NCBI RefSeq assembly: GCF_009674665.1
Contig: NZ_WKJD01000004.1
Location: 62,001-126,000, forward strand
Length of the DNA stretch: 64,000 bases
Reading direction: 5' to 3'
Source of the DNA: Agromyces kandeliae
GTDB taxonomy: Bacteria > Actinomycetota > Actinomycetes > Actinomycetales > Microbacteriaceae
Under the pieces are notes generated by a model. It was given only the letters and a program-made list of their open reading frames with translations, was not told where the DNA came from and ran no database searches. Below, in pieces: positions 42,563-56,493 of the stretch. The translations under genes and the position numbers were made by a program. Position 1 is the first letter of the stretch. Every line of letters begins with the position of its first letter.

Positions 42563-43222
42563 GTGCCGAACATCGACCTGATCCTGGGGGCCGATCACGG
42601 GCGGAGGCGCTCGGTGCGAACCGAGCCGACGCAGCGACGCAGCTCCCAGCGGCTCGACGCCCTGCTGGACGCCGCCGCCGAGATCGTCGACGAACTCGGA
42701 TTCGAGCGGCTGACCACGCAGATGGTCGCCGAGCGTGCCGGTGCGTCGATCGGCACCGTGTACCGGTACTTCCCGGACCGCGTCGCCGTCCTCCACGCGT
42801 TGCGCGAGCGGAGCGTCCGGCGCTTCCGGGAGCGGTTGGCCGAGGCGGTCGACGGCGCCGAGCTCGTCGCCTGGTGGGACGTCGTCGACCTGGCGCTCGA
42901 TGTCTGCACCGAGCTCTACCGGGACGAGCCGGGGTTCGCCGTGGTCTACTCGGCGCCGCGCGAGGCGTCGGAGGTCGACGGAGAGCCCGAGATCGCGCAC
43001 CGCGTCGCGCGGCTCCTCGAGCACGACTTCGGCGTGATCGACGACGCAGAGGTCCGCCTCCGGCTCGGCATCGCGCTGGAGATCGGCGCCACGCTGATCC
43101 ACCGCGCGTTCGTCCGAGACGGCGCCGGCGATGCCCGATACCTCGACGAGGCGCACCGAGTGGTCAGGGACTACCTCGGGCGGCATCTGGCCGACCAGCT
43201 CGCGGCAGCCCCCGCGGCCTGA
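42563..43222 (+). CDS. TetR-family regulator
   Basis: A 219-residue regulator. The N-terminal HTH (RLDALLDAAAEIVDELGFERL, then TTQMVAERAGASIGTVYRYF) is typical of TetR, with a C-terminal ligand domain of helices. The GTG start follows AAGGAGGACCC. It is 103 bp upstream of, and in the same direction as, the OpuC-like transporter, so it may regulate that operon or be autonomous. The ligand is unknown. Confidence 0.9.
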   Translation: MPNIDLILGADHGRRRSVRTEPTQRRSSQRLDALLDAAAEIVDELGFERLTTQMVAERAGASIGTVYRYFPDRVAVLHALRERSVRRFRERLAEAVDGAELVAWWDVVDLALDVCTELYRDEPGFAVVYSAPREASEVDGEPEIAHRVARLLEHDFGVIDDAEVRLRLGIALEIGATLIHRAFVRDGAGDARYLDEAHRVVRDYLGRHLADQLAAAPAA

Positions 43223-43250
43223 ACATCCGCGGCGAACCGCCGCACGCCCG

Positions 43251-43279
43251 TTGCCACGTCGCCGCCGAGGTGTTTGGCT
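43251..43279 (+). promoter_or_regulatory. Candidate promoter of the OpuC-like operon
   Basis: TTGCCA (43251-43256), 17 bp, TTGGCT (43274-43279). A start near 43286 leaves a leader of about 40 nt to the ATG at 43326 with GAGAGGCAGC. The -10 is imperfect. Confidence 0.4.
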
Positions 43280-43325
43280 TGTGGACGCGGCGCCGGACGG
43301 CGCCCGGGACCGACGGAGAGGCAGC

Positions 43326-44138
43326 ATGATCGAGTTCCGCGGCGTCACCAAGCAGTTCCCAGACGGGACGATCGCCGTCCACGACGTGGACATCGTCATC
43401 CCGCCGCGCAAGACCACGGTCCTCGTCGGCTCGTCGGGCTCGGGCAAGACGACGCTCCTTCGGATGATCAACCGCATGGTCGACCCGACCGGCGGGCAGG
43501 TGCTCATCGACGGCACGGACGTCGCGACCGTCGATCCGGTCAAGCTCCGCCGGGGCATCGGCTACGTGATGCAGAACTCCGGGCTCCTGCCGCATCGGAA
43601 GGTCATCGACAACGTCGCGACGGTCCCGCTCCTGCGCGGTGAGTCGCGGCGGGCGGCGCACGCGCACGCCCTCGAGCTGCTCGACACGGTCGGGCTCGAT
43701 CGGTCGCTGGCCGACAGGTACCCCGCGCAGCTCTCGGGTGGACAGCAGCAGCGCGTCGGCGTGGCCCGCGGGCTCGCGGTCGATCCGAACATCCTGCTGA
43801 TGGACGAGCCCTTCGGGGCGGTCGACCCGATCGTGCGGGCGGAACTGCAGCAGGAGCTCCTCAGGCTCCAGGGCGAGCTCGGCAAGACCGTGGTCTTCGT
43901 CACGCACGACATCGACGAGGCGTTCCTCCTCGGCGACCAGGTCGTCATCATGCAGCAGGGCGGACTGATCTCCCAGGCCGCGTCGCCGGCGGAGATCCTC
44001 GCGCATCCGGCCGACTCGTTCGTGGCGGACTTCGTGGGCGCCGACCGCGGCAAGCGGGCCCTGCACGTCACCGAGGTCGACGGACGTCGCGTGGTCGTGG
44101 ATGCGGACGGCAGGGCGGCGGGAGTCCTGGCCTCGTGA
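43326..44138 (+). CDS. opuCA: Osmolyte (betaine/choline-type) ABC transporter ATPase
   Basis: A 270-residue ABC ATPase of the OpuCA/ProV type. Walker A GSSGSGKTTLLRMINRM with the MINRM extension typical of quaternary-amine importers, Q-loop VMQNSGLLPHRKV, signature LSGGQQQRVGVAR, Walker B LLMDEPFGAVDP and His-switch FVTHDIDEA. It energises import by the two permeases downstream. The C-terminal CBS pair used by OpuA/OpuC for ionic-strength sensing is absent; only ~30 residues follow the ATPase domain. ATG at 43326. Stop overlaps the next gene (GTGA). Confidence 0.9.
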   Translation: MIEFRGVTKQFPDGTIAVHDVDIVIPPRKTTVLVGSSGSGKTTLLRMINRMVDPTGGQVLIDGTDVATVDPVKLRRGIGYVMQNSGLLPHRKVIDNVATVPLLRGESRRAAHAHALELLDTVGLDRSLADRYPAQLSGGQQQRVGVARGLAVDPNILLMDEPFGAVDPIVRAELQQELLRLQGELGKTVVFVTHDIDEAFLLGDQVVIMQQGGLISQAASPAEILAHPADSFVADFVGADRGKRALHVTEVDGRRVVVDADGRAAGVLAS

Positions 44139-44821
44139 ACTGGCTGTGGTCGAACCTCGACCTCGTCGGCGAGCTCATGCTCGTCCACCTCGCGCTGTCG
44201 GTGCCGGCGATCATACTGAGCTTCGTGGTCTCGGTGCCGATCGGCTGGCTCGCCCACCGCTACCGGTGGTCGAGGGGCGTCCTCCTGTCGATCTGCGGGC
44301 TGCTCTACGCCATCCCGTCGCTCGCCCTGTTCATCGCCCTGCCGGCCTTCACCGGCCTCAGCCTGCGATCTCCGGTGAACCTCGTCATCGCACTCACGCT
44401 CTACGGCGTCGCGGTGATCGTGCGCACCTCGGCCGACGCGTTCGACTCCGTCGAGCGCGACATCCGGCAGTCGGCGACGGCGGTGGGCTATTCCGCGGCC
44501 GGGCGGTTCTGGGGGGTCGAGCTGCCCCTCGCAGGGCCGGTGCTCCTCTCCGGCCTCCGCGTCGTCATCGTGAGCACCGTGAGCCTCGCGACGGTCGGTG
44601 CGGTGATCGGAGTGCCGAGCCTCGGGAGCCTCTTCACGGACGGATTCCAGCGCGGCATCCAGATCGAGATCATCACCGGGATCGTGGCGACGATCGTGCT
44701 CGCGCTCGGACTCGATGCGCTCAGCGTGCTGCTCGGTCGCCTCCTGATGCCGTGGACGCGCCGTGCGTCGAGCAACGGCCGGGTCCTGACGGCGCGCCGA
44801 GTCCGGGAGGAGACCGCATGA
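44135..44821 (+). CDS. opuCB: OpuC-like permease, first subunit
   Basis: A 228-residue membrane permease with about five to six helices. The binding-protein-dependent transport block is DSVERDIRQSATAVGYSAAGRF, matching the EAA loop that docks the ATPase. GTG start overlaps the ATPase stop and the TGA overlaps the next ATG (ATGA). It forms the channel with the second permease for quaternary-amine or similar osmolytes. The true substrate is not proven by sequence. Confidence 0.88.
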   Translation: MNWLWSNLDLVGELMLVHLALSVPAIILSFVVSVPIGWLAHRYRWSRGVLLSICGLLYAIPSLALFIALPAFTGLSLRSPVNLVIALTLYGVAVIVRTSADAFDSVERDIRQSATAVGYSAAGRFWGVELPLAGPVLLSGLRVVIVSTVSLATVGAVIGVPSLGSLFTDGFQRGIQIEIITGIVATIVLALGLDALSVLLGRLLMPWTRRASSNGRVLTARRVREETA

Positions 44822-45561
44822 ACCTCTTCCTCGACGCGTTCGCCTGGCTCGCCGACCCGGCGAACTGGACCGGTCCCGGGAGCATCCCGCAGCGGATCGC
44901 CGAGCACCTGTGGGTCTCGGCGCTCGTGCTCGTCATCGCGTCCGCCATCGCGCTGCCGCTCGGTGCCCTCGTCGGCCACACGGGGCGGGGTCGGGAGCCC
45001 GCGGTCATGGTCTCGGGCGGCCTCCGTGCGCTGCCGACGCTCGGCGTGCTCACGCTCTTCGGCATCTGGATCGGGATCGGCCTCGCCGCACCGGTGATCG
45101 CGCTCGTCATCCTCGCCATCCCGCCGCTGCTGGCCGGCGCGTACGCCGGCTTCGAGTCCGTCGATCGGCGCACCATCGACGCGGCCCGGGCGATGGGGAT
45201 GCGCGAACTCCAGGTGGTCGGGAAGGTCGAGCTCCCGCTGGGGATGCCGATCGTCGTGGGCGGCATCCGTTCAGCGACCCTCCAGATCATCGCGACCGCG
45301 ACCCTCGCGGCCTACATCGCCGACGAGGGCCTCGGCAGATTCATCTTCGCGGGGCTGAAGACCCGCGACTACGGCGAGATGCTGGGCGGGTCGATCCTCG
45401 TCATCCTCCTCGCGCTCGTCATCGACGGATGCTTCGCGCTCACGCAGCGCGTCGTCGTCCCGGCCGGCGTCCGAGCGACGCGGACCGCAGAGCTCCGTTC
45501 GGGACCGACCCGGTCGCGAACGATCGTGGGGCGACCCAACACCGAAGGGAACCAGGAATGA
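44818..45561 (+). CDS. opuCD: OpuC-like permease, second subunit
   Basis: A 247-residue permease with about five to six helices and the EAA loop RTIDAARAMGMRELQVVGKVELP. It starts with a short periplasm-facing segment (FAWLADPANWTGPGSIPQRI) typical of the OpuCD/YehY class. The ATG overlaps the preceding stop, and the TGA overlaps the ATG of the binding-protein gene, so all four genes are translationally linked. Confidence 0.88.
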   Translation: MNLFLDAFAWLADPANWTGPGSIPQRIAEHLWVSALVLVIASAIALPLGALVGHTGRGREPAVMVSGGLRALPTLGVLTLFGIWIGIGLAAPVIALVILAIPPLLAGAYAGFESVDRRTIDAARAMGMRELQVVGKVELPLGMPIVVGGIRSATLQIIATATLAAYIADEGLGRFIFAGLKTRDYGEMLGGSILVILLALVIDGCFALTQRVVVPAGVRATRTAELRSGPTRSRTIVGRPNTEGNQE

Positions 45562-46484
45562 TCACAGCAGGAAAAGGCCGGCTCGTTGCGCTCGCAGCGG
45601 TCGCGGTCGGGGCGACAGTGGCCCTGGCAGGGTGCGCATCGGGTGATCCGCTCGACAGCGGATCGGATGGCGGCGACGCGACGAGCGAGACCATCGTCGT
45701 CGGCTCGCAGGACTACTACTCCAACGAGATCATCGCCGAGATCTACGCCCAGGCGCTCGAGGAGAACGGCTACACGGTCGACCGGCAGTTCCGGATCGGC
45801 CAGCGCGAGGTCTACATCCCGGAGATCGAGTCGGGCGCGATCGACGTCTTCCCCGAGTACACGGGCAACCTCCTCCAGTACTACGTGCCCGACACCACCG
45901 CCACGACGAGCGACGACGTCTACGCGGAGCTCTCGACGTCGCTGCCCGACGGGCTCCGCGTGCTCGAGCAGTCGCCGGCGACCGACCAGGACTCGTACAA
46001 CGTCACCCGGACGTTCTCCGACGACAACGGGGTCACGAGCCTCGCCGACCTCAAGGACGTCTCGACGCCGATCACGCTCGGCGGCAACTCCGAACTGGAG
46101 ACGCGCCCGTACGGGCCCGAGGGGCTGCAGTCGGTGTACGGCGTCGAGGTGGCGTTCACCCCGATCGAGGACAGCGGCGGGCCGCTCACCCTCAAGGCGC
46201 TCGTCGACGACCAGGTGCAGATGGTGAACATCTACAGCGCCGACCCGAACATCGCCGCGAACGACCTCGTGACGCTCGAGGACCCGGAGGGCCTCTTCCT
46301 CGCCTCGAACGTCGTGCCGGTCGTGAGCGACAAGGTGAACGACGAGATCGCCGAGATCATCGACACGGTGAGCGCGGCGCTCACCGCCGAAGAGCTCGTC
46401 GCCCTCAACGCGTTGAGCGTCAACGAGCAGCAGTCCGCGGAGCAGATCGCGACCGACTGGCTCGCGGAGCAGTCGCTCTTCTAG
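45558..46484 (+). CDS. opuCC: OpuC/OsmF-like substrate-binding lipoprotein
   Basis: A 308-residue exported lipoprotein. The signal peptide ends in the lipobox LAGC (Cys26). The mature protein begins ETIVVGSQDYYSNEIIAEIYAQAL, then IPEIESGAIDVFPEYTGNLL, typical of the OsmF/OpuCC glycine-betaine and choline binding class, and ends in a helical QQSAEQIATDWLAEQ. It presents substrate to the two permeases. Its TAG stop overlaps the TAG of the convergent DedA gene in a shared CTAG. Confidence 0.9.
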   Translation: MITAGKGRLVALAAVAVGATVALAGCASGDPLDSGSDGGDATSETIVVGSQDYYSNEIIAEIYAQALEENGYTVDRQFRIGQREVYIPEIESGAIDVFPEYTGNLLQYYVPDTTATTSDDVYAELSTSLPDGLRVLEQSPATDQDSYNVTRTFSDDNGVTSLADLKDVSTPITLGGNSELETRPYGPEGLQSVYGVEVAFTPIEDSGGPLTLKALVDDQVQMVNIYSADPNIAANDLVTLEDPEGLFLASNVVPVVSDKVNDEIAEIIDTVSAALTAEELVALNALSVNEQQSAEQIATDWLAEQSLF

Positions 46485-47230
46485 GACGCGGGATCCTCGC
46501 GCGAGGGGTCGGCGGCTTCGGCCGCCGGCCCCTTCGTCGGGTCGGTCGGGGCGATGTGCGGGGGGATCGCGGGGTGCGCGGCCGACTCGGCGGCATCCGT
46601 CATGTGCCGCGCCTCGAGGCGGAGGAGGACCTTCTTGCCGAGCCAGGTGAGCACGAGGAAGAGGATGATGGCGCCGACGAAGAGGTATCCCGCCCAGTGG
46701 AGGTTCTCGCTCAGTTCGCGATAGCCGCCCGCCGCGGCCGAGCCGACGCCGACGTAGGCGAACGACCAGATGATGCACGCGGGCGTGGTCCATGCCATGA
46801 ACCGCCGATACGACATGTCGCTCATGCCCACCGTCAGCGGGACGAGCGAGTGCAGGACCGGCAGGAACCGGGAGATGAAGACGGCGGGGCCGCCGCGCCG
46901 CGCCAGGTACCGTTGCGCGCGGTGCCAGTTGTGCTCGCCGATGCGGCGGCCGAGGCGCGAATGCTGGATGTGCGGCCCGAACCAGCGGCCCAGCGCGAAT
47001 CCGATGCTCTCGCCGATCAGGGCGCCCACGATCACCGCGAGCGCGAGCGCGACGAACTCGACCGGACCCTCGACCCCGGTCGCCGCGACGATGACGATCG
47101 TGTCGCCCGGGACGATGAGGCCGATGAGCACGGACGTCTCGAGCATGATGCCGATGCCGGCGAGCAGCGTGCGGACGATCGGGTCGACGCTCTGCACCGT
47201 CTCGAGGATGCCGTCGAGCAGCTCGTTCAC
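46481..47230 (-). CDS. DedA-family membrane protein
   Basis: A 249-residue DedA/SNARE-associated integral membrane protein with four to five helices. Family motifs are GLIVPGDTIVIVAA, GESIGFALGRWFG and the FISRFLPVLHSLVPLTVGMSDM box with conserved Arg, and a re-entrant region. Homologues act as undecaprenyl-phosphate or phospholipid translocases and aid envelope integrity. The C-terminal 50 residues are Pro/Ala/Glu-rich and cytosolic. GTG start at 47230, 7 nt after a TAGGCT -10. It ends in a 4-nt overlap with the transporter operon. Confidence 0.9.
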   Translation of the reverse strand: MNELLDGILETVQSVDPIVRTLLAGIGIMLETSVLIGLIVPGDTIVIVAATGVEGPVEFVALALAVIVGALIGESIGFALGRWFGPHIQHSRLGRRIGEHNWHRAQRYLARRGGPAVFISRFLPVLHSLVPLTVGMSDMSYRRFMAWTTPACIIWSFAYVGVGSAAAGGYRELSENLHWAGYLFVGAIILFLVLTWLGKKVLLRLEARHMTDAAESAAHPAIPPHIAPTDPTKGPAAEAADPSREDPAS

Positions 47231-47264: not shown

Positions 47265-48197
47265 TCAGGCGGCGATCGCGGCGAGTACGCACACGGGGAC
47301 TGCGACGATCGCCGTCGCGAGCAGCCACGTCGCGCTCCTCGCACGCGGGTCGAGGGGATGGAGGTCGGCCTCGAGTCGCGCGAGCCGGCGTTCGAGCACG
47401 CGTTCGTCGGAGGCGGCCGACGCGGTCGGCGAGTCATCGTACGCCGCCGACGCGCCGGAGCTGCCGACCCTGAGCAGTGCCGTGCGCAGCGGCTCGACGC
47501 CGACCCGCCGACGGGGTGCGTCGTCGGCGAGCATCTCGGTGAGCATCGCGACCGACCGCTCGGCGCGGTTCGCGATCGGGAACCAGGGGAGTGCCGCGTG
47601 CCAGGCGCGGAAGGCGAGCAGGACGAGGTGGTGGAGCTGGTCGAGGTGCGCGCGCTCGTGACCGACGACGGCGCGGAGCTCGGCCTCGTCGAGGAGCTCG
47701 ACGAGGCCGTCGGTGATGACGGTGGCCGTCCGCAGGCCGGGCACGCAGTAGGCGGCCGGGACCGGATGCGCGAGCACTCGCGCACCGGTCGACTCGCTGG
47801 CGGGGCTCGCGAGGAGGTCGATGAGCCGGTGCTGGCGTCGCCGGGCGCGCTCGGCGCGGACGGCCGTCGTCGCGAGGTTGAGCGCGAGGTGGACGGCGAG
47901 GCCCACCGCGAGCGTGAGGGCCGCGAGGTGCACGACGCCGAAGCCCTCGGGGATCGGACCGGCGGCGGCCATGGGGAGCAGCGCGTTCGCGGCGCCGGCC
48001 AGGGATCCGGCGGGCGATGCCCCGAACGCGAGCAGGGCGCCGATCATGGACAGGCCGCCGCCCAGCGCGATGCCCTGCCAGAGCACGAGCGCGGTCGCGG
48101 GGGAGCGCGCCGGCCACTCCGCGCGAGAGAGCGCGACGGGAACGGGCCACGCGAGCGCGAAGGCGAGGGCGCCGAGCGCCACGGCGGCGACGATCAC
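47265..48197 (-). CDS. M56-family membrane metalloprotease (BlaR1-like, no sensor domain)
   Basis: A 310-residue membrane protein of the BlaR1/MecR1 peptidase family. Hydrophobic segments at about 1-22, 38-60 and 88-112 precede a cytosolic zinc-protease domain with HERAH (His180-His184) in ELRAVVGHERAHLDQ, and one C-terminal helix (WLLATAIVAVPVCVLAAIAA) closes it. The extracellular penicillin-binding sensor domain of true BlaR1 is missing. It should cleave or inactivate the BlaI repressor encoded just upstream, on an unknown signal. The GTG at 48197 lies 1 nt after the blaI stop, so the pair is translationally coupled. Confidence 0.88.
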   Translation of the reverse strand: MIVAAVALGALAFALAWPVPVALSRAEWPARSPATALVLWQGIALGGGLSMIGALLAFGASPAGSLAGAANALLPMAAAGPIPEGFGVVHLAALTLAVGLAVHLALNLATTAVRAERARRRQHRLIDLLASPASESTGARVLAHPVPAAYCVPGLRTATVITDGLVELLDEAELRAVVGHERAHLDQLHHLVLLAFRAWHAALPWFPIANRAERSVAMLTEMLADDAPRRRVGVEPLRTALLRVGSSGASAAYDDSPTASAASDERVLERRLARLEADLHPLDPRARSATWLLATAIVAVPVCVLAAIAA

Positions 48198-48198
48198 G

Positions 48199-48570
48199 TC
48201 AGTGGCGGACCACGTCGTCGAGCAGGCGGCGCAGCGTGTTCGCCTCACCGGCGCTCACGGTTCCGACGAACCGCGCGAGCGCGGCATCTCGATCGGACGA
48301 GGCGGAGAGGACCTCGTGCATGAGCTCGGCGGTGTGCTCGGCGCGCGACAGGAGCGCCGAGTAGCGATGCGGGCGCGTGTCGCGGCTGCGCCCGACGAAC
48401 CCCTTGCGCTCGAGGCGCGAGAGGACGGTCAGCACCGTGGTCGTCGCCGGGGCGCGACCGGGGGCGGACGCCGACGCGAGCCGGTCGCGGACCTCGTTCG
48501 CCGTGAGCGCCGAATCGCCCATCCAGAGCTGTTCCATCACGGAGCGCTCCAGCTCGCCGAGACCTGCCAT
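48199..48570 (-). CDS. blaI: BlaI/MecI/CopY-family repressor
   Basis: A 123-residue winged-helix repressor: GELERSVMEQLWMGDSALTANEVRDRL (helix-turn-helix), ATTTVLTVLSRLERKGFV (recognition helix) and a dimerisation tail. Family repressors bind palindromes of TAC/GTA type and are removed by proteolysis from the partner M56 protease. Two TCTAC-N5-GTAGA palindromes lie in the intergenic region shared with cydA. The ATG at 48570 is preceded at 6 nt by TATCCT, a leaderless arrangement. Confidence 0.9.
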   Translation of the reverse strand: MAGLGELERSVMEQLWMGDSALTANEVRDRLASASAPGRAPATTTVLTVLSRLERKGFVGRSRDTRPHRYSALLSRAEHTAELMHEVLSASSDRDAALARFVGTVSAGEANTLRRLLDDVVRH

Positions 48571-48576
48571 ATCTCG

Positions 48577-48582
48577 AGGATA
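48577..48582 (-). promoter_or_regulatory. Leaderless -10 box TATCCT of blaI
   Basis: On the minus strand TATCCT ends 6 nt before the ATG of blaI. The upstream palindrome (48602-48618) covers the zone where the -35 contact would fall. Confidence 0.5.
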
Positions 48583-48601
48583 CCGCGCAAGGGCCCAACG
48601 G

Positions 48602-48641
48602 TTCTACGTCGTGTAGAAAACATGCTCTACTCTCTGTAGAA
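48602..48641. promoter_or_regulatory. Double BlaI-like operator between blaI and cydA
   Basis: TTCTAC-N5-GTAGAA (48602-48618, perfect) and CTCTAC-N5-GTAGAA (48625-48641) share the core TCTAC-N5-GTAGA and have centres 23 bp apart. A -10-like TACTCT (48628-48633) for cydA lies inside the second. BlaI-family repressors bind such palindromes, often in pairs, at shared divergent promoters. No terminator role is likely, because no gene ends here. Confidence 0.7.
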
Positions 48642-48681
48642 GTGTCGCGTCGACGATCGTTCCCATGAAAGGGGCCCCCGC

Positions 48682-50094
48682 GTGAACGAGTTGCTCGATC
48701 CGCTCCTGCTCGCCAGGTGGCAGTTCGGTCTCACCACGGTCTACCACTTCCTCTTCGTCCCGATCACGATCGGGCTCGCGACCTCGGCGGCGATCTTCCA
48801 GACCGCCTGGGTGCGCACCGGCAAGGTCGAGTACCTGCGGATCACGCGGTTCTTCGGCACGATCTTCCTCATCAACTTCGCCATGGGCGTCGTGACGGGC
48901 ATCGTGCAGGAGTTCCAGTTCGGCATGAACTGGTCGGAGTACTCGCGCTTCGTCGGCGACGTGTTCGGCGCCCCGCTCGCGCTCGAGGGCCTGCTCGCGT
49001 TCTTCCTCGAAGCCACGTTCATCGGCCTCTGGATCTTCGGCTGGAACCGGCTCCCGCAGAAGCTGCACCTGGCCACGATCTGGGCGACGGCGATCGGCAC
49101 CATCCTCTCGGCCTACTTCATCATCGCGGCCAACGCATTCATGCAGAACCCGGTCGGCTACGAGATGAACGCCGAGCGCGGCCGCGCCGAACTCGTCGAC
49201 ATCTGGGCGCTGCTGACCAACCCGGTCGCCCTCGCCGCGTTCCCGCACACCATCGCGGCCTGCTTCATGGTGAGCTCCGGCCTCATCATCAGCGCCGCCG
49301 CGTGGCACCTGGCACGCAACCAGCACCTCGACACGATGCGACCGGCGCTCAAGTTCGGCCTCTGGGGGATGCTCGTCGCCGGTGCGCTCACCACGTTCTT
49401 CGGCGACCAGCTCAGCCTCGCGATGGTCGCCACCCAGCCGATGAAGATGGCGGCGGCAGAGGCGACCTACGACACCGTGTGCGGGGCGGCCGCCTCGTTC
49501 TCGCTGTTCACGCTCGGCACGCCCGACGGCACGACCGAGCTCTTCTCGATCCGCGTGCCGTACCTCCTGTCGCTGCTGTCGACGCACTCGTTCGACGGGT
49601 GCGTCGAGGGCATCAACGACCTCCAGGCGCAGTACGCCGAGCTCTACGGCCCCGGCGACTACGCGCCCATCATCTGGGTCACGTACTGGGCGTTCCGCTG
49701 GATGATCGGCCTCGGCGTGCTGCACGTGCTGATCGCGCTCGTCGGGCTCTGGCTCACCCGCAAGGGCCGCATGCCGAAGCAGCGCTGGGTCTGGACGGTC
49801 GCCGTGTGGAGCTTCCCGCTCTCGCTCGCGGCGATGATCGTCGGCTGGGTGTTCACCGAGATGGGCCGCCAGCCGTGGATCGTGTTCAGCCTCCTGCCGA
49901 CCGAGTCGGCGGTCTCGCCCAACGTCACCGGCCTCGACGTGCTGATCTCGCTCGTCGCGTTCACGCTGATCTACGGCATCCTCGCCGTCGTCGAGGTGAA
50001 GCTCATCGTGCAGGCGGTGCGGAAGGGCCCGCCCGAGATCGCCCCGCCCGACCCGGAGACGGGCAAGGTCGAACACACCGCAACGGTCTACTAG
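48682..50094 (+). CDS. cydA: Cytochrome bd ubiquinol/menaquinol oxidase subunit I
   Basis: A 470-residue membrane protein with about nine helices carrying haems b558, b595 and d. It oxidises menaquinol and reduces oxygen with high affinity. ARWQFGLTTVYHFLFVPITIGL carries the first haem His. Also present are the GRQPWIV motif, AAWHLARNQH, and the Q-loop region of the short type between helices VI and VII (no CydAqau-type insert). GTG start after AAAGGGGCCC. It is first in cydABDC and divergent from blaI. Confidence 0.96.
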   Translation: MNELLDPLLLARWQFGLTTVYHFLFVPITIGLATSAAIFQTAWVRTGKVEYLRITRFFGTIFLINFAMGVVTGIVQEFQFGMNWSEYSRFVGDVFGAPLALEGLLAFFLEATFIGLWIFGWNRLPQKLHLATIWATAIGTILSAYFIIAANAFMQNPVGYEMNAERGRAELVDIWALLTNPVALAAFPHTIAACFMVSSGLIISAAAWHLARNQHLDTMRPALKFGLWGMLVAGALTTFFGDQLSLAMVATQPMKMAAAEATYDTVCGAAASFSLFTLGTPDGTTELFSIRVPYLLSLLSTHSFDGCVEGINDLQAQYAELYGPGDYAPIIWVTYWAFRWMIGLGVLHVLIALVGLWLTRKGRMPKQRWVWTVAVWSFPLSLAAMIVGWVFTEMGRQPWIVFSLLPTESAVSPNVTGLDVLISLVAFTLIYGILAVVEVKLIVQAVRKGPPEIAPPDPETGKVEHTATVY

Positions 50095-50106: not shown

Positions 50107-51111
50107 ATGGATCTCGCAGTGCTCTGGTTCTGGATCGTCGCGTTCCTCTTCGTCGGCTACTTCGTCCTCGACGGGTTCGACTTCGGCGTCGGGATGTCGC
50201 TGCCCTTCCTCGGGAGGGACGACACCGACCGCCGGGTCCTCATCAACACCATCGGGCCGGTCTGGGACCTCAACGAGACGTGGGTCATCGTCGCGGGCGC
50301 CGCCCTGTTCGCGGCGTTCCCCGAGTGGTACGCGACGCTCTTCTCGGGGTTCTACCTCGCGTTGCTGCTCATCCTGCTGGCGCTCATCGCACGCGGCGTG
50401 TCGTTCGAGTACCGCCACCAGCGGCCGGAAGCCGCATGGAAGCGGCGCTTCGACTGGATGATCATCGTGGGCTCGGCCGTGCCGGCGCTGCTGTGGGGCG
50501 TCGCGTTCGCGAACATCGTCCAGGGCGTGCCGCTCGACGCCGACCACAACTACACGGGCACGCTCTTCGACCTGCTGAACCCGTACGCGCTGCTCGGCGG
50601 ACTCACGACGCTGATGCTGTTCTTCACGCACGGCGTGGTGTTCGTCGCCCTGAAGACGGACGGCGACATCCGGCAGCGCGCGCGGCGCCTCGCGGCGCGA
50701 GCCGGTGCGATCACCGTCGTGGTCGCCGCGGCCTTCCTCGTCTGGACGGGATTCGCGTACGGCACGGCCTGGTTCTGGGGGCTCGCCGCCGTCGCCGCGC
50801 TCGCGCTCATCGGCTCGTGGCTGGCGAACGGTCGCGGTGCGGAGCGGGTCGCGTTCGCGCTCATGGCGGTGACGATCGGCGCGGCCGTCTTCGCTCTCTT
50901 CGCCGCGCTGTTCCCCGACGTCATGCCCGCATCGAACGATCCGGCGAACAGCCTGACGATCGCGAACGCCTCGAGCACGCCCTACACGCTGACGGTCATG
51001 AGCTGGACGGCGCTGATCTTCCTGCCGCTGATCCTCGCCTACCAGGGCTGGACCTACTGGGTCTTCCGCAAGCGCGTCACCCGGCAGACGATCGACGCCG
51101 CCGCGCACTGA
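50107..51111 (+). CDS. cydB: Cytochrome bd oxidase subunit II
   Basis: A 334-residue polytopic membrane protein (about eight helices) that stabilises the haem sites of CydA. Family features are MDLAVLWFWIVAFLFVGYFV, LDGFDFGVGMSLPFL, IGPVWDLNETWVIVAGAALFAAFP and SFEYRHQ. ATG with AGGAGGACACGG upstream; 12 bp after cydA. It probably has an internal translation dependence on cydA. Confidence 0.96.
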   Translation: MDLAVLWFWIVAFLFVGYFVLDGFDFGVGMSLPFLGRDDTDRRVLINTIGPVWDLNETWVIVAGAALFAAFPEWYATLFSGFYLALLLILLALIARGVSFEYRHQRPEAAWKRRFDWMIIVGSAVPALLWGVAFANIVQGVPLDADHNYTGTLFDLLNPYALLGGLTTLMLFFTHGVVFVALKTDGDIRQRARRLAARAGAITVVVAAAFLVWTGFAYGTAWFWGLAAVAALALIGSWLANGRGAERVAFALMAVTIGAAVFALFAALFPDVMPASNDPANSLTIANASSTPYTLTVMSWTALIFLPLILAYQGWTYWVFRKRVTRQTIDAAAH

Positions 51112-51112
51112 C

Positions 51113-52774
51113 GTGCGCCCGCTCGATCCCAGACTGCTCCGGCGTTCGCGCGCCGCCCGCGGCTTCATGGTCGCGGGCGGCGCGCTCGCGCTGCTCCAGG
51201 CGGGGGCCGCGGTCGCGTTCGCATGGGCCCTCGCCGCGCTCGTCGTCGGCCTGATCGAGGGGGATGTCCCGGGCGGAGCGAGCACGATCGTGGCCGTCAT
51301 GCTGGTCGCGGCATCCGTTCGGGCGCTCACGGGGTGGCTGTGGGAGTGGCTCGGGTCGGCCGGGGCCATGCGCGTCAAGGCCGAGCTGCGGGACGCCCTG
51401 CTCGGACGGCTCGAGGACCGCGCGGGCCGGCGGTCGGTCACGACTGCGCGGGCGGCGACGCTGCTCGGGCCCGGCCTGGACGCCCTCGACGAGTACTTCG
51501 GACGCTACCTCCCGCAACTCGTGCTGACGGCGGTCGCGACGCCGGTGCTCGTGGTCGCGGCGTGGACCGCGGACTGGGTCTCCGGACTGATCCTCGTGAT
51601 CGTCCTGCCCCTCATCCCGGTGTTCATGGCGCTCATCGGCATGGCGACCGAGGTCGTCCAGCGTCGGCAGTGGGACCGCCTGCAGGCCCTCTCCCGCGGC
51701 TTCCTCGAGGTGCTGGGCGGCCTGTCGACGCTCATGGTCTTCGGCCGCGCCGAACGGCAGTCGCGTCGCATCCGGACGGTCACCGACGAGTACCGCTCGA
51801 GCACCATGAAGGTGCTCCGGGTGACCTTCCTGTCGGGGTTCACGCTCGAGCTGGCCGGGAGCCTCTCGGTCGCGCTCGTCGCCGTCTCGATCGGGCTCCG
51901 CCTGGTCGCGGGGGACATGGCGTTCGCCCCGGGACTGTTCGTGCTGATCCTCGCACCCGACGTCTTCCTCCCGATCCGGAACGTCGGTGCCGCGTTCCAT
52001 TCCGCGACGGCCGGCCTCGAGGCGTCCCGCGAGGCGCTCGACCTGCTCGACGCGGACGAACCCCACGGCCCGGTGCGCGGCGATCGTGCCGAACGGACGG
52101 ATGCCGCGGCGTCCGGCTCCCACGATCCGATCACGGATGGTCTGCGCGGGGGCCTGCGGGTCCGCGACCTCGTCGTCCTCCGCGACGGGCAGCCGGTCAC
52201 CGCTCCGCTCGACCTCGACGCCGCGCGCGGCGAACTCGTGGCGCTGACGGGGGCGAGCGGGTCGGGGAAGTCGTCGCTGCTCGCCGCGATGCTCGGGTTC
52301 GCCGACCGCACCGGCGAGCTCGACCTCGACGGCGTCTCGCTCGGAGCTCGGACGCGCCGGCTCGTGGCCTGGTCCGGACAGGTGCCGCAGCTCGTGGAGG
52401 GCACGATCGCCGCGAACATCCGCCTCGGCTCCGAGGACGCCGACCCGGCGCTGCTGCTCCACGCGGCGGCGGTCGCCGGCGTCGACGTCGACCCGGGGCT
52501 GCGGCTCGGACCGGCCGGTGCGGGCCTCTCGGGCGGGCAGGCGCAGCGCGTCGCCGTCGCGCGTGCCGTGCACCGAGCGCTCGCGATCGACGCGCCGCTC
52601 GTCCTCCTCGACGAACCCACGTCGGCCCTCGACGTCGACCGGGAACGGGCGATGGCGGTCGCGCTCCGTGATCTCGCGCGCTCCGGTCGGATCGTGCTCG
52701 TCGCGACCCATCGCGGCGGCCTCGCCGATGCCGCCGACCGCGTCATCCCGATCCGGGAGGCGATCCGTGCCTGA
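51113..52774 (+). CDS. cydD: CydD subunit of the thiol/haem ABC exporter
   Basis: A 553-residue ABC half-transporter (six-helix membrane domain, then ATPase). Walker A LTGASGSGKSSLLAAML, signature GLSGGQAQRVAVARAV, Walker B LVLLDEPTSALD and H-loop VATHRGG. With CydC it is needed to assemble cytochrome bd, by exporting cysteine/glutathione or moving haem. GTG start 1 bp after cydB. The stop is inside the start of cydC (8-nt overlap). Confidence 0.94.
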   Translation: MRPLDPRLLRRSRAARGFMVAGGALALLQAGAAVAFAWALAALVVGLIEGDVPGGASTIVAVMLVAASVRALTGWLWEWLGSAGAMRVKAELRDALLGRLEDRAGRRSVTTARAATLLGPGLDALDEYFGRYLPQLVLTAVATPVLVVAAWTADWVSGLILVIVLPLIPVFMALIGMATEVVQRRQWDRLQALSRGFLEVLGGLSTLMVFGRAERQSRRIRTVTDEYRSSTMKVLRVTFLSGFTLELAGSLSVALVAVSIGLRLVAGDMAFAPGLFVLILAPDVFLPIRNVGAAFHSATAGLEASREALDLLDADEPHGPVRGDRAERTDAAASGSHDPITDGLRGGLRVRDLVVLRDGQPVTAPLDLDAARGELVALTGASGSGKSSLLAAMLGFADRTGELDLDGVSLGARTRRLVAWSGQVPQLVEGTIAANIRLGSEDADPALLLHAAAVAGVDVDPGLRLGPAGAGLSGGQAQRVAVARAVHRALAIDAPLVLLDEPTSALDVDRERAMAVALRDLARSGRIVLVATHRGGLADAADRVIPIREAIRA

Positions 52775-54569
52775 TCGTTCCCGTCCGGTCCTGCGGCAGG
52801 CGGTCCCGCCCGTGCGCAGGCTCGTGCCGTCGGTGCTCCTCGGCATGCTCGCCGGCCTCTCGAGCGTCGCACTGCTCGCCTCGAGCGCCTGGCTCATCGC
52901 CCGCGCCGCCGAGCAGCCTCCGGTGCTGTACCTCTCGCTCGGCGTGGTCGGCGTCCGCGCGTTCGCGCTCGGGCGCGCGGTCTTCCGCTACCTCGAGCGG
53001 CTCGCCGGTCACGACGCGGCGTTCCGGCAGCTCGCCGAGATCCGGGTCGGCGTGTTCGAGCGGATGCTCCCGCTCGCGCCCGACGGGCTCGCATCGTCGC
53101 GGCGCGGCGACCTGCTCTCGCGCTTCGTCGGCGACGTCGACGAGTTGCAGAACGTGAGCCTGCGGATCGTGCAGCCCGTCGCGAGCGCCGTGATCGTCCT
53201 CGCCGCGGCGTTCGCGGGGCTCGCCTGGCTCGCACCGGGCGCCGCGGTGGCCGTGACCGTGGTCCTCGTGATCGGCATCGGCGGCGCCGTGCTCGCCCAG
53301 GTGCTGCTCGCCGCTCGCGCGGACGACCGGCTCGCGCCGCTCCGCGGCGAGCTGCAGGCGGCCGTCGTCGAGCACGTGCAGGCGCTCGACGTGCTCGTGG
53401 CATTCGGTGCCGCCGACGCCGGGCGCGACCGCATCCGCCGGCTCGGCCGTCGACTCGAGCGCGCGACCCGCGCCCGGGCGTCCGCGGTCGGTCTCGCGGC
53501 GGCCGCGATGAGCGCCGTCGGCGCGTTCGCGGCGGCGGCGAGCCTGGGCGCCGCGCAGCCGCTCCTCGAGGGGGGTCGGATCGACGGGCCGACGTTCGCG
53601 GTGCTCTGCCTGGTGCCGCTCGCGATCGCCGAGGTCGCCGCGGCGATCCCCGTGGCGCTCGGGTCGCTGCGCGTGGTCCGAGCCAGCGCGCGTCGGGTCG
53701 CCGACGCGGTGCCGGAGGTCGTCCCGCCCGAGATCCCGGCACGTCGGCAGGGCGAGCGGGTCGCGACATCCGGGTCTCGATCGCTCACGCCCGCCCCCGG
53801 CGGGCGGGGCGTTCCGGCGATCGCGCTCCGAGGTGCGAGTGCGCGATGGCCCGCGATCACGGGCGACATGACGGCTCCGGGTGCCGCCGGCGCATCCGCT
53901 CGCCCCGCGCTCGCGCCGCTCGACCTCGACCTCGTCTCGGGCGAGCGAGTGCTCGTCGCCGGACCCTCCGGGTCGGGCAAGACGACGCTGGCGCACGTGC
54001 TGGTCCGATTCCTGGAGTACGGCGGCTCGTACCGGATCGGCGGCGTCGAAGCGCGCGACCTCGACCCACGGGACGTCCGCCGCACGGTCGGCCTCGTCGA
54101 GCAGCGGCCGTGGCTCTTCGACGAGGACCTCCGGCAGAACCTCGTCTTCGCACGCGACACCGCGACCGACGCGGAACTGCTCGACGTGCTGGAGCGCGTC
54201 GGCCTGGCGGAATGGGCGGCCGCGCGCGGCGGCCTCGACGCGCGGGTCGGCGAGCGCGGCGCGCTCGTCTCCGGCGGACAGGCGCAGCGGATCGCGCTGG
54301 CCAGGGCGATGCTCGCCGACTTCCCGGTGCTCGTGCTCGACGAGCCGACGGCGAGCGTCGACCCTGCGCAGGCCGACGAGCTCCTGACGGACCTGCTGGC
54401 CGCGGCCGGCGACCGGTCGGTGGTGCTGATCTCGCACACCGGCGCGCCGACCGGACTCGTCGATCGCGCCGTCGCGCTCGGCGCCGAGGAGATCGGGCCG
54501 GCGGGGTCCGTCGACGAGGATTCCGTGCGTATCGCGCACGGTCGTTGCGGCGAGCGGGGAACCCCCTAG
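52767..54569 (+). CDS. cydC: CydC subunit of the thiol/haem ABC exporter
   Basis: A 600-residue ABC half-transporter and partner of CydD. The membrane domain is about residues 15-300, followed by a long Pro/Arg-rich linker and the ATPase domain with VAGPSGSGKTTLAHVL, LVSGGQAQRIALARAML and LVLDEPTASVDPAQ, and ISHTG at the H-loop. The GTG at 52767 is chosen because the conserved RLVPSVLLGMLAGLSSVALL helix follows. It overlaps cydD by 8 nt. A longer open frame upstream is cydD read out of frame. Confidence 0.93.
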   Translation: MPDRSRPVLRQAVPPVRRLVPSVLLGMLAGLSSVALLASSAWLIARAAEQPPVLYLSLGVVGVRAFALGRAVFRYLERLAGHDAAFRQLAEIRVGVFERMLPLAPDGLASSRRGDLLSRFVGDVDELQNVSLRIVQPVASAVIVLAAAFAGLAWLAPGAAVAVTVVLVIGIGGAVLAQVLLAARADDRLAPLRGELQAAVVEHVQALDVLVAFGAADAGRDRIRRLGRRLERATRARASAVGLAAAAMSAVGAFAAAASLGAAQPLLEGGRIDGPTFAVLCLVPLAIAEVAAAIPVALGSLRVVRASARRVADAVPEVVPPEIPARRQGERVATSGSRSLTPAPGGRGVPAIALRGASARWPAITGDMTAPGAAGASARPALAPLDLDLVSGERVLVAGPSGSGKTTLAHVLVRFLEYGGSYRIGGVEARDLDPRDVRRTVGLVEQRPWLFDEDLRQNLVFARDTATDAELLDVLERVGLAEWAAARGGLDARVGERGALVSGGQAQRIALARAMLADFPVLVLDEPTASVDPAQADELLTDLLAAAGDRSVVLISHTGAPTGLVDRAVALGAEEIGPAGSVDEDSVRIAHGRCGERGTP

Positions 54570-54639
54570 CGGTATCCACCGGGCGCTGGTTGAATCCGTG
54601 CATCCGCACCACCCCGATCGCGAAGGAGCCATCACCCCC

Positions 54640-56493
54640 ATGAGAGCACTACGCACCGGTACCGCCGTCGTCGCCGTCGCGGCGCTCGCACTCGGCGCCG
54701 GACCGGCATTCGCCCACGACGACACCCCGTGGATCGACGACGGCGTCCTGGATTCCGGCAAGGAGACCCACCAGCACCACGCGCACGACCAGCAGCACGG
54801 TGAAGAGGACGGACACCTGCCGCCGTCGAGCGAGAACGTGACGAAGATCGCGAACCTCGATCTCTTCGAGGACGAGGAGGAACCGGGTCGCATCGCCGAC
54901 GTGTCGGCCTACGGGAACTACGCCTACCTCACGGCCTTCTGGGAGCCCGAGTGCGACCGCGGCGGCGTCTACATCGTCGACATCTCCGACCCGGAGGCAC
55001 CCGAGCTCGTTACGCTCATCCCGAGCCACCGCGGCACGTTCAGCGGTGAGGGGTCGCAGGTGATCCACCTGGAGACGCCGTACTTCACGGGCGAGGTGCT
55101 CGCGTACCAGAACGAGATCTGCCCCGGAGAGACCAAGGGCGTGGGGGGCATGACGCTCGTCGACGTGACCGACCCGACGAAGCCGAAGAAGCTCGTCGAG
55201 GGTGCGGGTGACTTCTCGGTCGCGGGCAAGGCCCAGACGAAGTCGAACGAGACCCACTCGGTGCGCATGTGGGCCGACGGCGACAAGGCCTACGCGGTGC
55301 TCGTCGACGACCTCGAGGACACCGACATCGACATCCTCGACATCACGAACCCGTCGAAGCCGAAGCTCGTCTCCGAGACCTCGCTCGACGCGGACACCGC
55401 CCAGTCGCCCGGCGAGGTGCACGGCGACGCGGTCTTCCTCCACGACATGGTCGTCGAGGAGATCGACGGCGAGATGATCATGCTCGCGTCCTACTGGGAC
55501 GGCGGATACGCGCTGCTGAACGTCGACGACCCCGCCGACCCGGTCTTCCTCCGCGACACCGACTTCGAGGCGACCGACCCGGTGCGAGCGCTGTTCGGCC
55601 AGACCGTGACGCCCGAGGGCAACGCGCACCAGGCCGAGTTCACGAACGACCGCGAGTTCTTCATCGCGACGGACGAGGACTTCGACCCGTTCCGGGTCGT
55701 GGCGACCATGGAGGACGGCACGGAGTTCACCGCGATCCAGGGGTCCGACGTGCCGCAGGTCGACGCCGAGACCACGCTCGCGGGCGACACCCGCTTCGTC
55801 GGCCTCGCGTGCGACGCAGCGAGCGTTCCGGCCGCGAGCGCCGGCGAGATCGCGATCATCGAGCGCGGCGTGTGCGACTTCACGGTGAAGGTGCAGAACG
55901 TCGAGGCGAAGGGCTACGAGGGTGCGGTCGTCTTCAATCGCACGGGCGTCGACGGCTGCGACACGCTCATCTCGATGCTCGTCGAGGCCGGGATCCCCGC
56001 GGTCTTCGTCTCGCGGACCGACGGCTTCCGCATCCTGACGGGCGGCGTGCCCGGCGACTACACGTGCGACGCCTCCGGTGCGGGAACGACCGTTCCGACC
56101 CCGGTCGGCGGCCTCGGTCAGGACGTCGCCATCCAGGCGGTGTTCGACGGCTGGGGCTACGTGCACCTGTACGACGCCGAGACCATGGTGGACCTCGACC
56201 AGTACTGGGTGCCGGAGAGCCAGGACGCCGACTTCGCGTCGGGCTTCGGCGACCTCTCGGTGCACGAGGTCGCGACCGACCCCGATGAGGAGCTCGCCTA
56301 CATCTCGTACTACGCCGCGGGCTTCCGCGTCGTGAGCTACGCGGGTGGCGAGTTCGAGGAGCTCGGCCACTACATCGAGGACGGCGGGAACAACTTCTGG
56401 GGCGTCGAGGTGCACCAGCATCCGAACGGCCAGGAGTACGTGCTCGCCTCCGACCGCGACAGCGGCCTGTACATCTTCCAGTACACGCCGTGA
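54640..56493 (+). CDS. Secreted LVIVD-repeat protein with inserted PA domain
   Basis: A 617-residue exported protein. The signal peptide ends GPAFA|HD at residue 25. A His-rich stretch (ETHQHHAHDQQHGEEDGH) follows. Repeats of YIVDISDPEAPEL / LVDVTDPTKPKKL / ILDITNPSKPKL type are LVIVD repeats forming a beta-propeller. A protease-associated domain (about residues 385-470, IAIIERGVCDFTVKVQNVEAKG) is inserted in the propeller, and the chain ends in further propeller strands. No sortase motif or anchor is seen. Function is unknown; metal binding or protein binding is suggested. The ATG at 54640 (GAAGGAG 11 nt upstream) starts at the signal peptide. Confidence 0.8.
   Translation: MRALRTGTAVVAVAALALGAGPAFAHDDTPWIDDGVLDSGKETHQHHAHDQQHGEEDGHLPPSSENVTKIANLDLFEDEEEPGRIADVSAYGNYAYLTAFWEPECDRGGVYIVDISDPEAPELVTLIPSHRGTFSGEGSQVIHLETPYFTGEVLAYQNEICPGETKGVGGMTLVDVTDPTKPKKLVEGAGDFSVAGKAQTKSNETHSVRMWADGDKAYAVLVDDLEDTDIDILDITNPSKPKLVSETSLDADTAQSPGEVHGDAVFLHDMVVEEIDGEMIMLASYWDGGYALLNVDDPADPVFLRDTDFEATDPVRALFGQTVTPEGNAHQAEFTNDREFFIATDEDFDPFRVVATMEDGTEFTAIQGSDVPQVDAETTLAGDTRFVGLACDAASVPAASAGEIAIIERGVCDFTVKVQNVEAKGYEGAVVFNRTGVDGCDTLISMLVEAGIPAVFVSRTDGFRILTGGVPGDYTCDASGAGTTVPTPVGGLGQDVAIQAVFDGWGYVHLYDAETMVDLDQYWVPESQDADFASGFGDLSVHEVATDPDEELAYISYYAAGFRVVSYAGGEFEELGHYIEDGGNNFWGVEVHQHPNGQEYVLASDRDSGLYIFQYTP

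Follow-up and report, generated by a model that had tools for sequence, protein, structure and literature searches.

The stretch of DNA analysed here, hereafter the window, comprises 64,000 nucleotides of Agromyces kandeliae (assembly GCF_009674665.1, contig NZ_WKJD01000004.1, positions 62,001 to 126,000 of the forward strand). It carries blaI, the gene of a BlaI/MecI/CopY-family repressor, followed by the gene of a BlaR1-like membrane zinc protease and, divergent from this pair, the genes cydABDC for the backup oxidase cytochrome bd. The features of the locus are summarized in Table 1. The 111-bp region between blaI and cydA contains two perfect palindromes with an identical core, their centres 23 bp apart, exactly where a preliminary description of this DNA had placed them. 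The overall interpretation given there, that the repressor and protease pair controls cydABDC through these operators, is supported by the sequence comparisons that follow.

Table 1. Features of the blaI-cydABDC locus (positions within the window).
Feature	Positions	Strand	Remarks
BlaR1-like membrane zinc protease	47265..48197	-	310 aa; HERAH and EMLADD motifs; no C-terminal sensor domain
blaI, BlaI/MecI/CopY-family repressor	48199..48570	-	123 aa; without cysteine
Divergent regulatory region blaI/cydA	48571..48681	.	111 bp
Candidate blaI -10 hexamer TATCCT	48577..48582	-	6 nt before ATG; leaderless transcript
Candidate blaI -35 hexamer TAGAAC	48601..48606	-	inside operator 1; 18-bp spacer to -10
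Operator 1, TCTAC-N5-GTAGA, TCTACGTCGTGTAGA	48603..48617	.	centre 48610; overlaps candidate blaI -35
Operator 2, TCTAC-N5-GTAGA, TCTACTCTCTGTAGA	48626..48640	.	centre 48633; cydA-proximal
cydA, cytochrome bd subunit I	48682..50094	+	
cydB, cytochrome bd subunit II	50107..51111	+	
cydD	51113..52774	+	TIGR02857, over cut-off
cydC	52518..54569	+	TIGR02868, over cut-off; open frame, CydC match from residue 90, about 52785

Operator 1 can be extended to TTCTAC-N5-GTAGAA at 48602-48618. With at most one mismatch allowed, the core is found four times in the window against 0.28 expected, and none of 100 shuffles attains four. In the whole 3.78-Mb genome the exact core is present solely as the two copies between blaI and cydA, while a reversed control pattern occurs three times. 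A chance origin of the operators is ruled out by the shuffles, by this genome count and by the permuted half-site controls given below. A wider regulon in the window genome is unsupported: sites with at most one mismatch are not enriched (44 versus 111 for the reversed control), and of the 42 one-mismatch sites, 37 of the 40 examined (the two inside the window were left out) are in coding sequence. With no other convincing site, the circuit looks local in this genome.

The window BlaI matches PF03965 (Penicillinase_R) at 82.3 bits (cut-off 22.6), its residues 4-118 covering positions 1-114 of the 115-position profile, and is the one BlaI of the genome above the Pfam cut-off. The calls of CydA, CydB, CydD and CydC were upheld as well. 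The protease frame is open from 48248, with 48197 as the likely start by comparison with homologues, and the product has the membrane zinc-protease domain with HExxH that marks BlaR1/MecR1 proteins. Pfam reports M48 (43.3 bits) and does not report PF05569 (M56) at E 0.001, a relative in L151 having an M56 match under the cut-off; the predicted fold, on the other hand, aligns best with residues 3-293 of Staphylococcus aureus BlaR1. This match comes from a second-look structural alignment; Foldseek's own search with the model returned nothing at E 0.001 or better; a PDB sequence search returned nothing at E 1. No C-terminal penicillin-binding sensor domain is matched in Pfam, and the last helix (284-309) runs to the end of the chain at residue 310. 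In the model, the membrane part and the protease domain fold as in BlaR1, and the chain stops short of where the BlaR1 sensor domain would be, in keeping with the earlier claim that the partner lacks a penicillin sensor.

These are the protein families of beta-lactam systems, and an ordinary BlaI-BlaR pair would respond to beta-lactams or cell-wall damage, with cytochrome bd induced within that stress response. In Mycobacterium tuberculosis, blaC is a gene repressed by BlaI, and a beta-lactam plus inhibitor raises blaI-blaR and cydAB, according to the accessible part of PMC5473688; in the window, a DedA/UptA-like envelope gene (match under family cut-offs) adjoins the pair. Besides the truncated protease, two observations argue against this explanation, which we consider improbable. 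No beta-lactamase or penicillin-binding protein is found among the eight proteins scanned between 46481 and 56493 (six besides the pair), and no cell-wall gene was recognised among the named operator-bearing genes of relatives, which are mostly respiratory (at L192 the divergent gene resembles, by eye, a mannose-1-phosphate guanylyltransferase). BlaI/MecI regulators in the functional sense control an adjacent beta-lactamase or penicillin-binding protein gene; there is none among the eight scanned proteins, and the exact core is nowhere else in the genome. By the tests made, the window system has the architecture of a BlaI with its BlaR1-like protease, yet it does not qualify as a beta-lactam system.

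The locus was compared with 80 others, the best 80 of 553 relatives by BlaI alignment, sampled from Agromyces, Leifsonia, Arthrobacter, Pseudarthrobacter, Cryobacterium, Subtercola and others; the nearest of these 80 are Agromyces, with 98% BlaI identity. blaI is followed by the protease gene and faces a divergent cydA in all 80. At least one exact core lies between blaI and cydA, and hence upstream of blaI as the dyad-symmetric operator expected in the promoter of a BlaI-family gene, in 79; two or more are present in 69, and the sole exception (L065) has two cores with one mismatch. The preliminary description had named absence of the sites from relatives with the same gene order as grounds for abandoning the idea; this is not what is seen. 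In the intergenic DNA of the 80 loci (13.2 kb) there are 184 exact cores, compared to none for each of 29 permuted half-sites. The double operator proposed at the outset is found here but is not universal: 37 loci have three exact cores, 32 two, 10 one and one none. Successive cores (n = 106) are spaced at 21-26 bp in 68 cases, at 32-34 bp in 11, at 87-91 bp in 26 and at 58 bp in one. This spread of spacings and counts indicates that an operator pair is typical, neither fixed nor obligatory. A strict 38-bp double operator was found in 27 of 299 genomes of the family (reversed control, none), with 25 of the 27 loci adjoining cydA and 23 having cydA, blaI and protease together. A variable-gap pattern was found in 21 of 394 genomes of the class; besides two loci found before, these comprise 19 new ones, of which 18 adjoin cydA and 13 have blaI adjacent.

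A sigma-70 consensus scan of the blaI-cydA region found no promoter, and the promoter was then approached by conservation. Among the 43 compact loci, a TANNNT box ends exactly 6 nt 5' of the blaI start in 40, and the operator half-site TAGAAN precedes the TANNNT position by 17-19 bp in 41; 39 have both elements, which agrees with the original suggestion that a palindrome covers the blaI -35 zone. The pattern was not seen in the 37 long-gap loci. With a leaderless promoter whose -35 lies inside operator 1, bound BlaI should block blaI transcription. The cydA -10 box TACTCT proposed in the same description is not established by the scan, although TANNNT recurs at that offset within the operator in many loci. 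A cydA -35/-10 pair set by the 23-bp operator period (TAGAAN-N17-TAGAAN) was also considered and dropped, because single-operator loci do not fit it.

It could be argued that BlaI is mainly self-regulating and that the operators are upstream of cydA by accident, as might be read from the 10 loci with a single exact core, mostly near blaI. This is hardly credible. Long-gap loci, which are of the Arthrobacter type, mostly have a core pair 30-70 bp from cydA and a third site nearer blaI; sites are found at cydA genes without an adjacent blaI (L007, L008, L119, L120, L127-L129); and two g85 genomes have separate operators before cydDC fusions. Repression of cyd by BlaI is, on these comparisons, highly probable.

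The distribution of the operator was also followed across 218 genomes of the order, a close BlaI being defined by E < 1e-40, a line placed at a gap in the results. TTCTAC-N5-GTAGAA is present in 39 genomes (164 sites) and the reversed control in 25 (27 sites). The site occurs in 33 of the 35 genomes with a close BlaI, which hold 154 sites versus 11 control sites. In the other 183 genomes, 10 sites spread over 6 genomes compare with 16 control sites in 16, which is chance level; the site is found in 4 of the 54 genomes whose BlaI is weaker and in 2 of 129, one site each, with no BlaI match. The difference between 33/35 and 6/183 has a Fisher p of 1.4e-30, uncorrected for phylogeny. On these counts the operator goes with this BlaI clade from one genome to the next.

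Another regulator might nevertheless bind the palindromes, with blaI beside cydA through ancestral linkage only. BlaI binding is a prediction, a common phylogeny could underlie both the BlaI clade and the sites, and there are cases with sites at cydA but a weak BlaI alone (genomes G135 and G072; loci L007 and L008, from two f1 genomes). The scarcity of the 17-mer in genomes without a BlaI match speaks against such a regulator, as does the site that blaI retains at its own promoter where cydA is not adjacent (L187, L219). In family f25, five cydA loci carry sites with no blaI within roughly 1.5 kb on either side, yet all five genomes have a close BlaI elsewhere (E 5e-42 to 4e-40); in two of them the distant blaI faces, by eye, another cydA-looking gene with a site. 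We regard a different regulator as very improbable, and binding of BlaI to the blaI-cydA operators is predicted as very likely.

The predicted targets in relatives were collected by hand in a regulon table of 121 sites from 21 of the 39 site-bearing genomes, chiefly genomes with multiple sites. Nine of the ten sites of G692 and all sites of the other 20 genomes were fetched; G000, G079, G142, G194, G240, G280, G700, G706, G742, G749, G754, G786, G818, G830, G840, G841, G842 and G852, and the double-operator loci L247 and L248, are outside the table. Gene labels were assigned by BLAST, with five window proteins and 34 reference proteins as the comparison set, the latter taken almost entirely from the same loci; 113 of 124 sites received a label, and 25 of these 113 label themselves. 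Names were given by Pfam or NCBIfam on one or a few representatives and otherwise by similarity. There are 102 operator-bearing loci, of which 20 are cydA-blaI or blaI alone. Among the other 82, 40 precede genes of respiration in the strict sense, a raw share uncorrected for background. The targets are HemQ and flavohaemoglobin (nine genomes each), a hypothetical gene followed by a PCuAC copper chaperone (five genomes), a TlpA/ResA-like protein (three genomes, four loci), QcrC, CtaG and a CydDC fusion (two genomes each, the fusion in g85), and CtaC, CtaB, SURF1, SdhC, CopD-CtaG, CopC and DUF1775-CopC (one each). Representatives match Chlor_dismutase and HemQ_actino, COX2, a cytochrome c gene beside COX3, SURF1, heme o synthase, Sdh_cyt, Caa3_CtaG, CopD, CopC, PCuAC, a globin with FAD domain, CydD and CydC. 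Operators before CopC-PCuAC (L024) and CopC-CopD (L118) come from outside the table. The remaining 42 loci include recurrent hypothetical membrane proteins, YceI or histidine phosphatase, pyridoxamine-oxidase-like and universal-stress proteins and a few others, and five have no clear gene; a NarK-like transporter (L236), a globin-like gene without Pfam match (L220) and isocitrate lyase (L186) are among the 42 and were not counted as respiratory. On this sequence evidence the BlaI clade appears to run a larger respiration regulon in relatives, foremost in the sister families f2 (Arthrobacter and kin) and f6.

Several further genes at operators deserve mention. A small membrane protein with a BlaI-type operator is found in 7 of the 21 genomes (L185:1547-1975, L167:2107-2514, L178:1624-2016 and relatives); the L167 copy has no NCBIfam match at the threshold used, and the protein is a candidate for an unknown respiratory factor. 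Other hypothetical genes, labelled hypA, hypD and hypF, recur at operators mostly in f6 genomes. At L142:2594-3305 the flavohaemoglobin gene downstream of the operator consists of two overlapping open frames and may be broken or reflect a sequencing error. L025, which is also outside the table, has a blaI-protease pair and four tandem cores opposite a cytochrome b561-type or molybdopterin oxidoreductase gene instead of cydA.

The account we propose rests on comparison, namely on operator conservation, the link between operator and BlaI clade, promoter overlap and target genes, from which we infer binding, repression, cleavage and signal. The repeated TTCTAC-N5-GTAGAA operators in the divergent region would be occupied by BlaI dimers, with repression of cydABDC on one side and of the blaI-protease pair on the other; operator 1 covers the candidate blaI -35. 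The BlaR1-like membrane zinc protease, without a penicillin sensor, would be the receptor for a signal from the membrane or the respiratory chain. Once activated, it would cut BlaI near residues 100-101 and free the operators, so that the bd oxidase and the CydDC assembly factor are made; autoregulation of the pair would then restore the off state. Cleavage is predicted by analogy and is fairly likely, its only basis being that Phe101 of BlaI aligns with the P1' residue of the S. aureus cleavage site and that this Phe is kept in 81 of 81 BlaIs. The account as a whole, in which BlaI represses cydABDC and itself, a sensorless protease relieves this, and some relatives have a respiration regulon, is likely.

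The regulon predicted in relatives, with aa3 subunits and assembly factors, cytochrome c, haem synthesis, copper delivery, CydDC and NO-detoxifying globins, suggests terminal-oxidase insufficiency as the signal. We give a respiratory signal or oxidase insufficiency about even odds; the protease might, for example, perceive an over-reduced quinone pool, NO, or a lack of haem or copper. The targets (bd and CydDC; aa3 subunits, haem o, and haem and copper supply; globins) fit a homeostatic answer to a failing terminal oxidase better than a beta-lactam response.

The strongest specific alternative is copper shortage. The pair would then act as a CopY-like copper sensor answering shortage (or excess), with copper-free bd replacing aa3 and copper delivery raised. 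Operators precede CopC, CopC-CopD, DUF1775-CopC, PCuAC, CtaG and a PepSY gene beside a heavy-metal ATPase. The available portions of PMC7924339 and PMC8265638 tie together sigC, copper starvation, cyd and atp expression and BlaI: an M. tuberculosis sigC mutant, copper-starved according to its authors, raises cyd and atp genes (PMC7924339), and sigC is described as a member of the BlaI regulon (PMC8265638). Like CopY/TcrY, the window BlaI matches TIGR02698, but at 29 bits, far below the cut-off of 121.95, which places it outside that family. None of 81 BlaIs contains a cysteine, which makes a CopY-type cysteine metal site in BlaI itself impossible, and HemQ, flavohaemoglobin and CydDC are not copper genes. 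We hold a copper sensor to be unlikely; copper could act through aa3 failure, which would merge this alternative with the proposed response to oxidase insufficiency. In its boldest form that proposal makes the sensorless protease a receptor for failing terminal-oxidase capacity. Acting via BlaI, it would be the master switch of aerobic respiration in Micrococcales and would release both the bd bypass and the aa3 supply chain from repression; this we offer tentatively, as somewhat less than an even prospect. One f56 genome (G773; L150, L151) has BlaI-type operators at a PepSY-TM gene adjoining a heavy-metal ATPase, and a blaI-protease pair beside another PepSY gene with operators, possibly a metal branch of the same regulator family.

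The S. aureus BlaI/MecI and BlaR1/MecR1 systems have repressors of the same family (1sd4, 1okr), a matching cleavage position and the best structural match to the protease model; unlike them, the window pair has neither a penicillin sensor nor a beta-lactamase or penicillin-binding protein gene among its scanned neighbours. The operators differ in spacing too, TAC-N5-GTA here versus TAC-N4-GTA for staphylococcal BlaI/MecI. HrrSA of Corynebacterium glutamicum is described as a haem-responsive actinobacterial regulator that sets the priority of terminal oxidases. It is a two-component system, whereas here a repressor-protease pair is found.

The closest solved relative of the window BlaI by sequence is that of the M. 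tuberculosis BlaI-BlaR pair, Rv1846c-Rv1845c (2g9w, E 1e-16). According to the accessible part of PMC5473688, mycobacterial BlaR likewise has no sensor domain, how M. tuberculosis responds to beta-lactams is unknown, and BlaI binds the blaC promoter and, citing Sala et al. 2009, those of cytochrome bd and ATP synthase. The preliminary description was right about such an effect on energy-metabolism genes. The same part of PMC5473688 describes no blaI-cydA adjacency, in contrast to the divergent genes and shared tandem operators found here, nor does it contain the Micrococcales target list (HemQ, aa3 assembly, cytochrome c, copper delivery, globins). BlaI binding at the cytochrome bd promoter is thus already reported in M. 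tuberculosis. No account of a BlaI respiration regulon in Micrococcales was recognised, from titles and the beginnings of abstracts, among the papers listed; with subscription papers mostly outside the search, this is weak evidence of novelty. BlaI-BlaR is the textbook antibiotic-sensing switch, and in these soil actinobacteria its relatives mark respiratory genes. If the account is right, it would suggest a role for sensorless BlaR proteins, including the mycobacterial ones of unknown signal; make repressor proteolysis a way of sensing electron transport; identify a regulator of cytochrome bd, which in mycobacteria contributes to tolerance of respiration inhibitors; and yield, through the shared operator, a list of uncharacterised genes that are possible respiratory factors.

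Downstream of the protease is the DedA/UptA-like membrane gene (VTT domain, 46481-47230, minus strand), a relative of which is found within the fetched DNA of 39 of the 80 BlaI loci. At L007 and L008 the VTT gene is itself divergent from cydA across the operators, and the gene may belong to the circuit. Near it (43131-46484) is what appears by eye to be an ordinary ABC transporter operon of the osmoprotectant kind, with an ATPase, two permeases and a substrate-binding protein. cydC is followed at 54598-56493 by the gene of a 631-aa protein with an LVIVD repeat and a PA domain.
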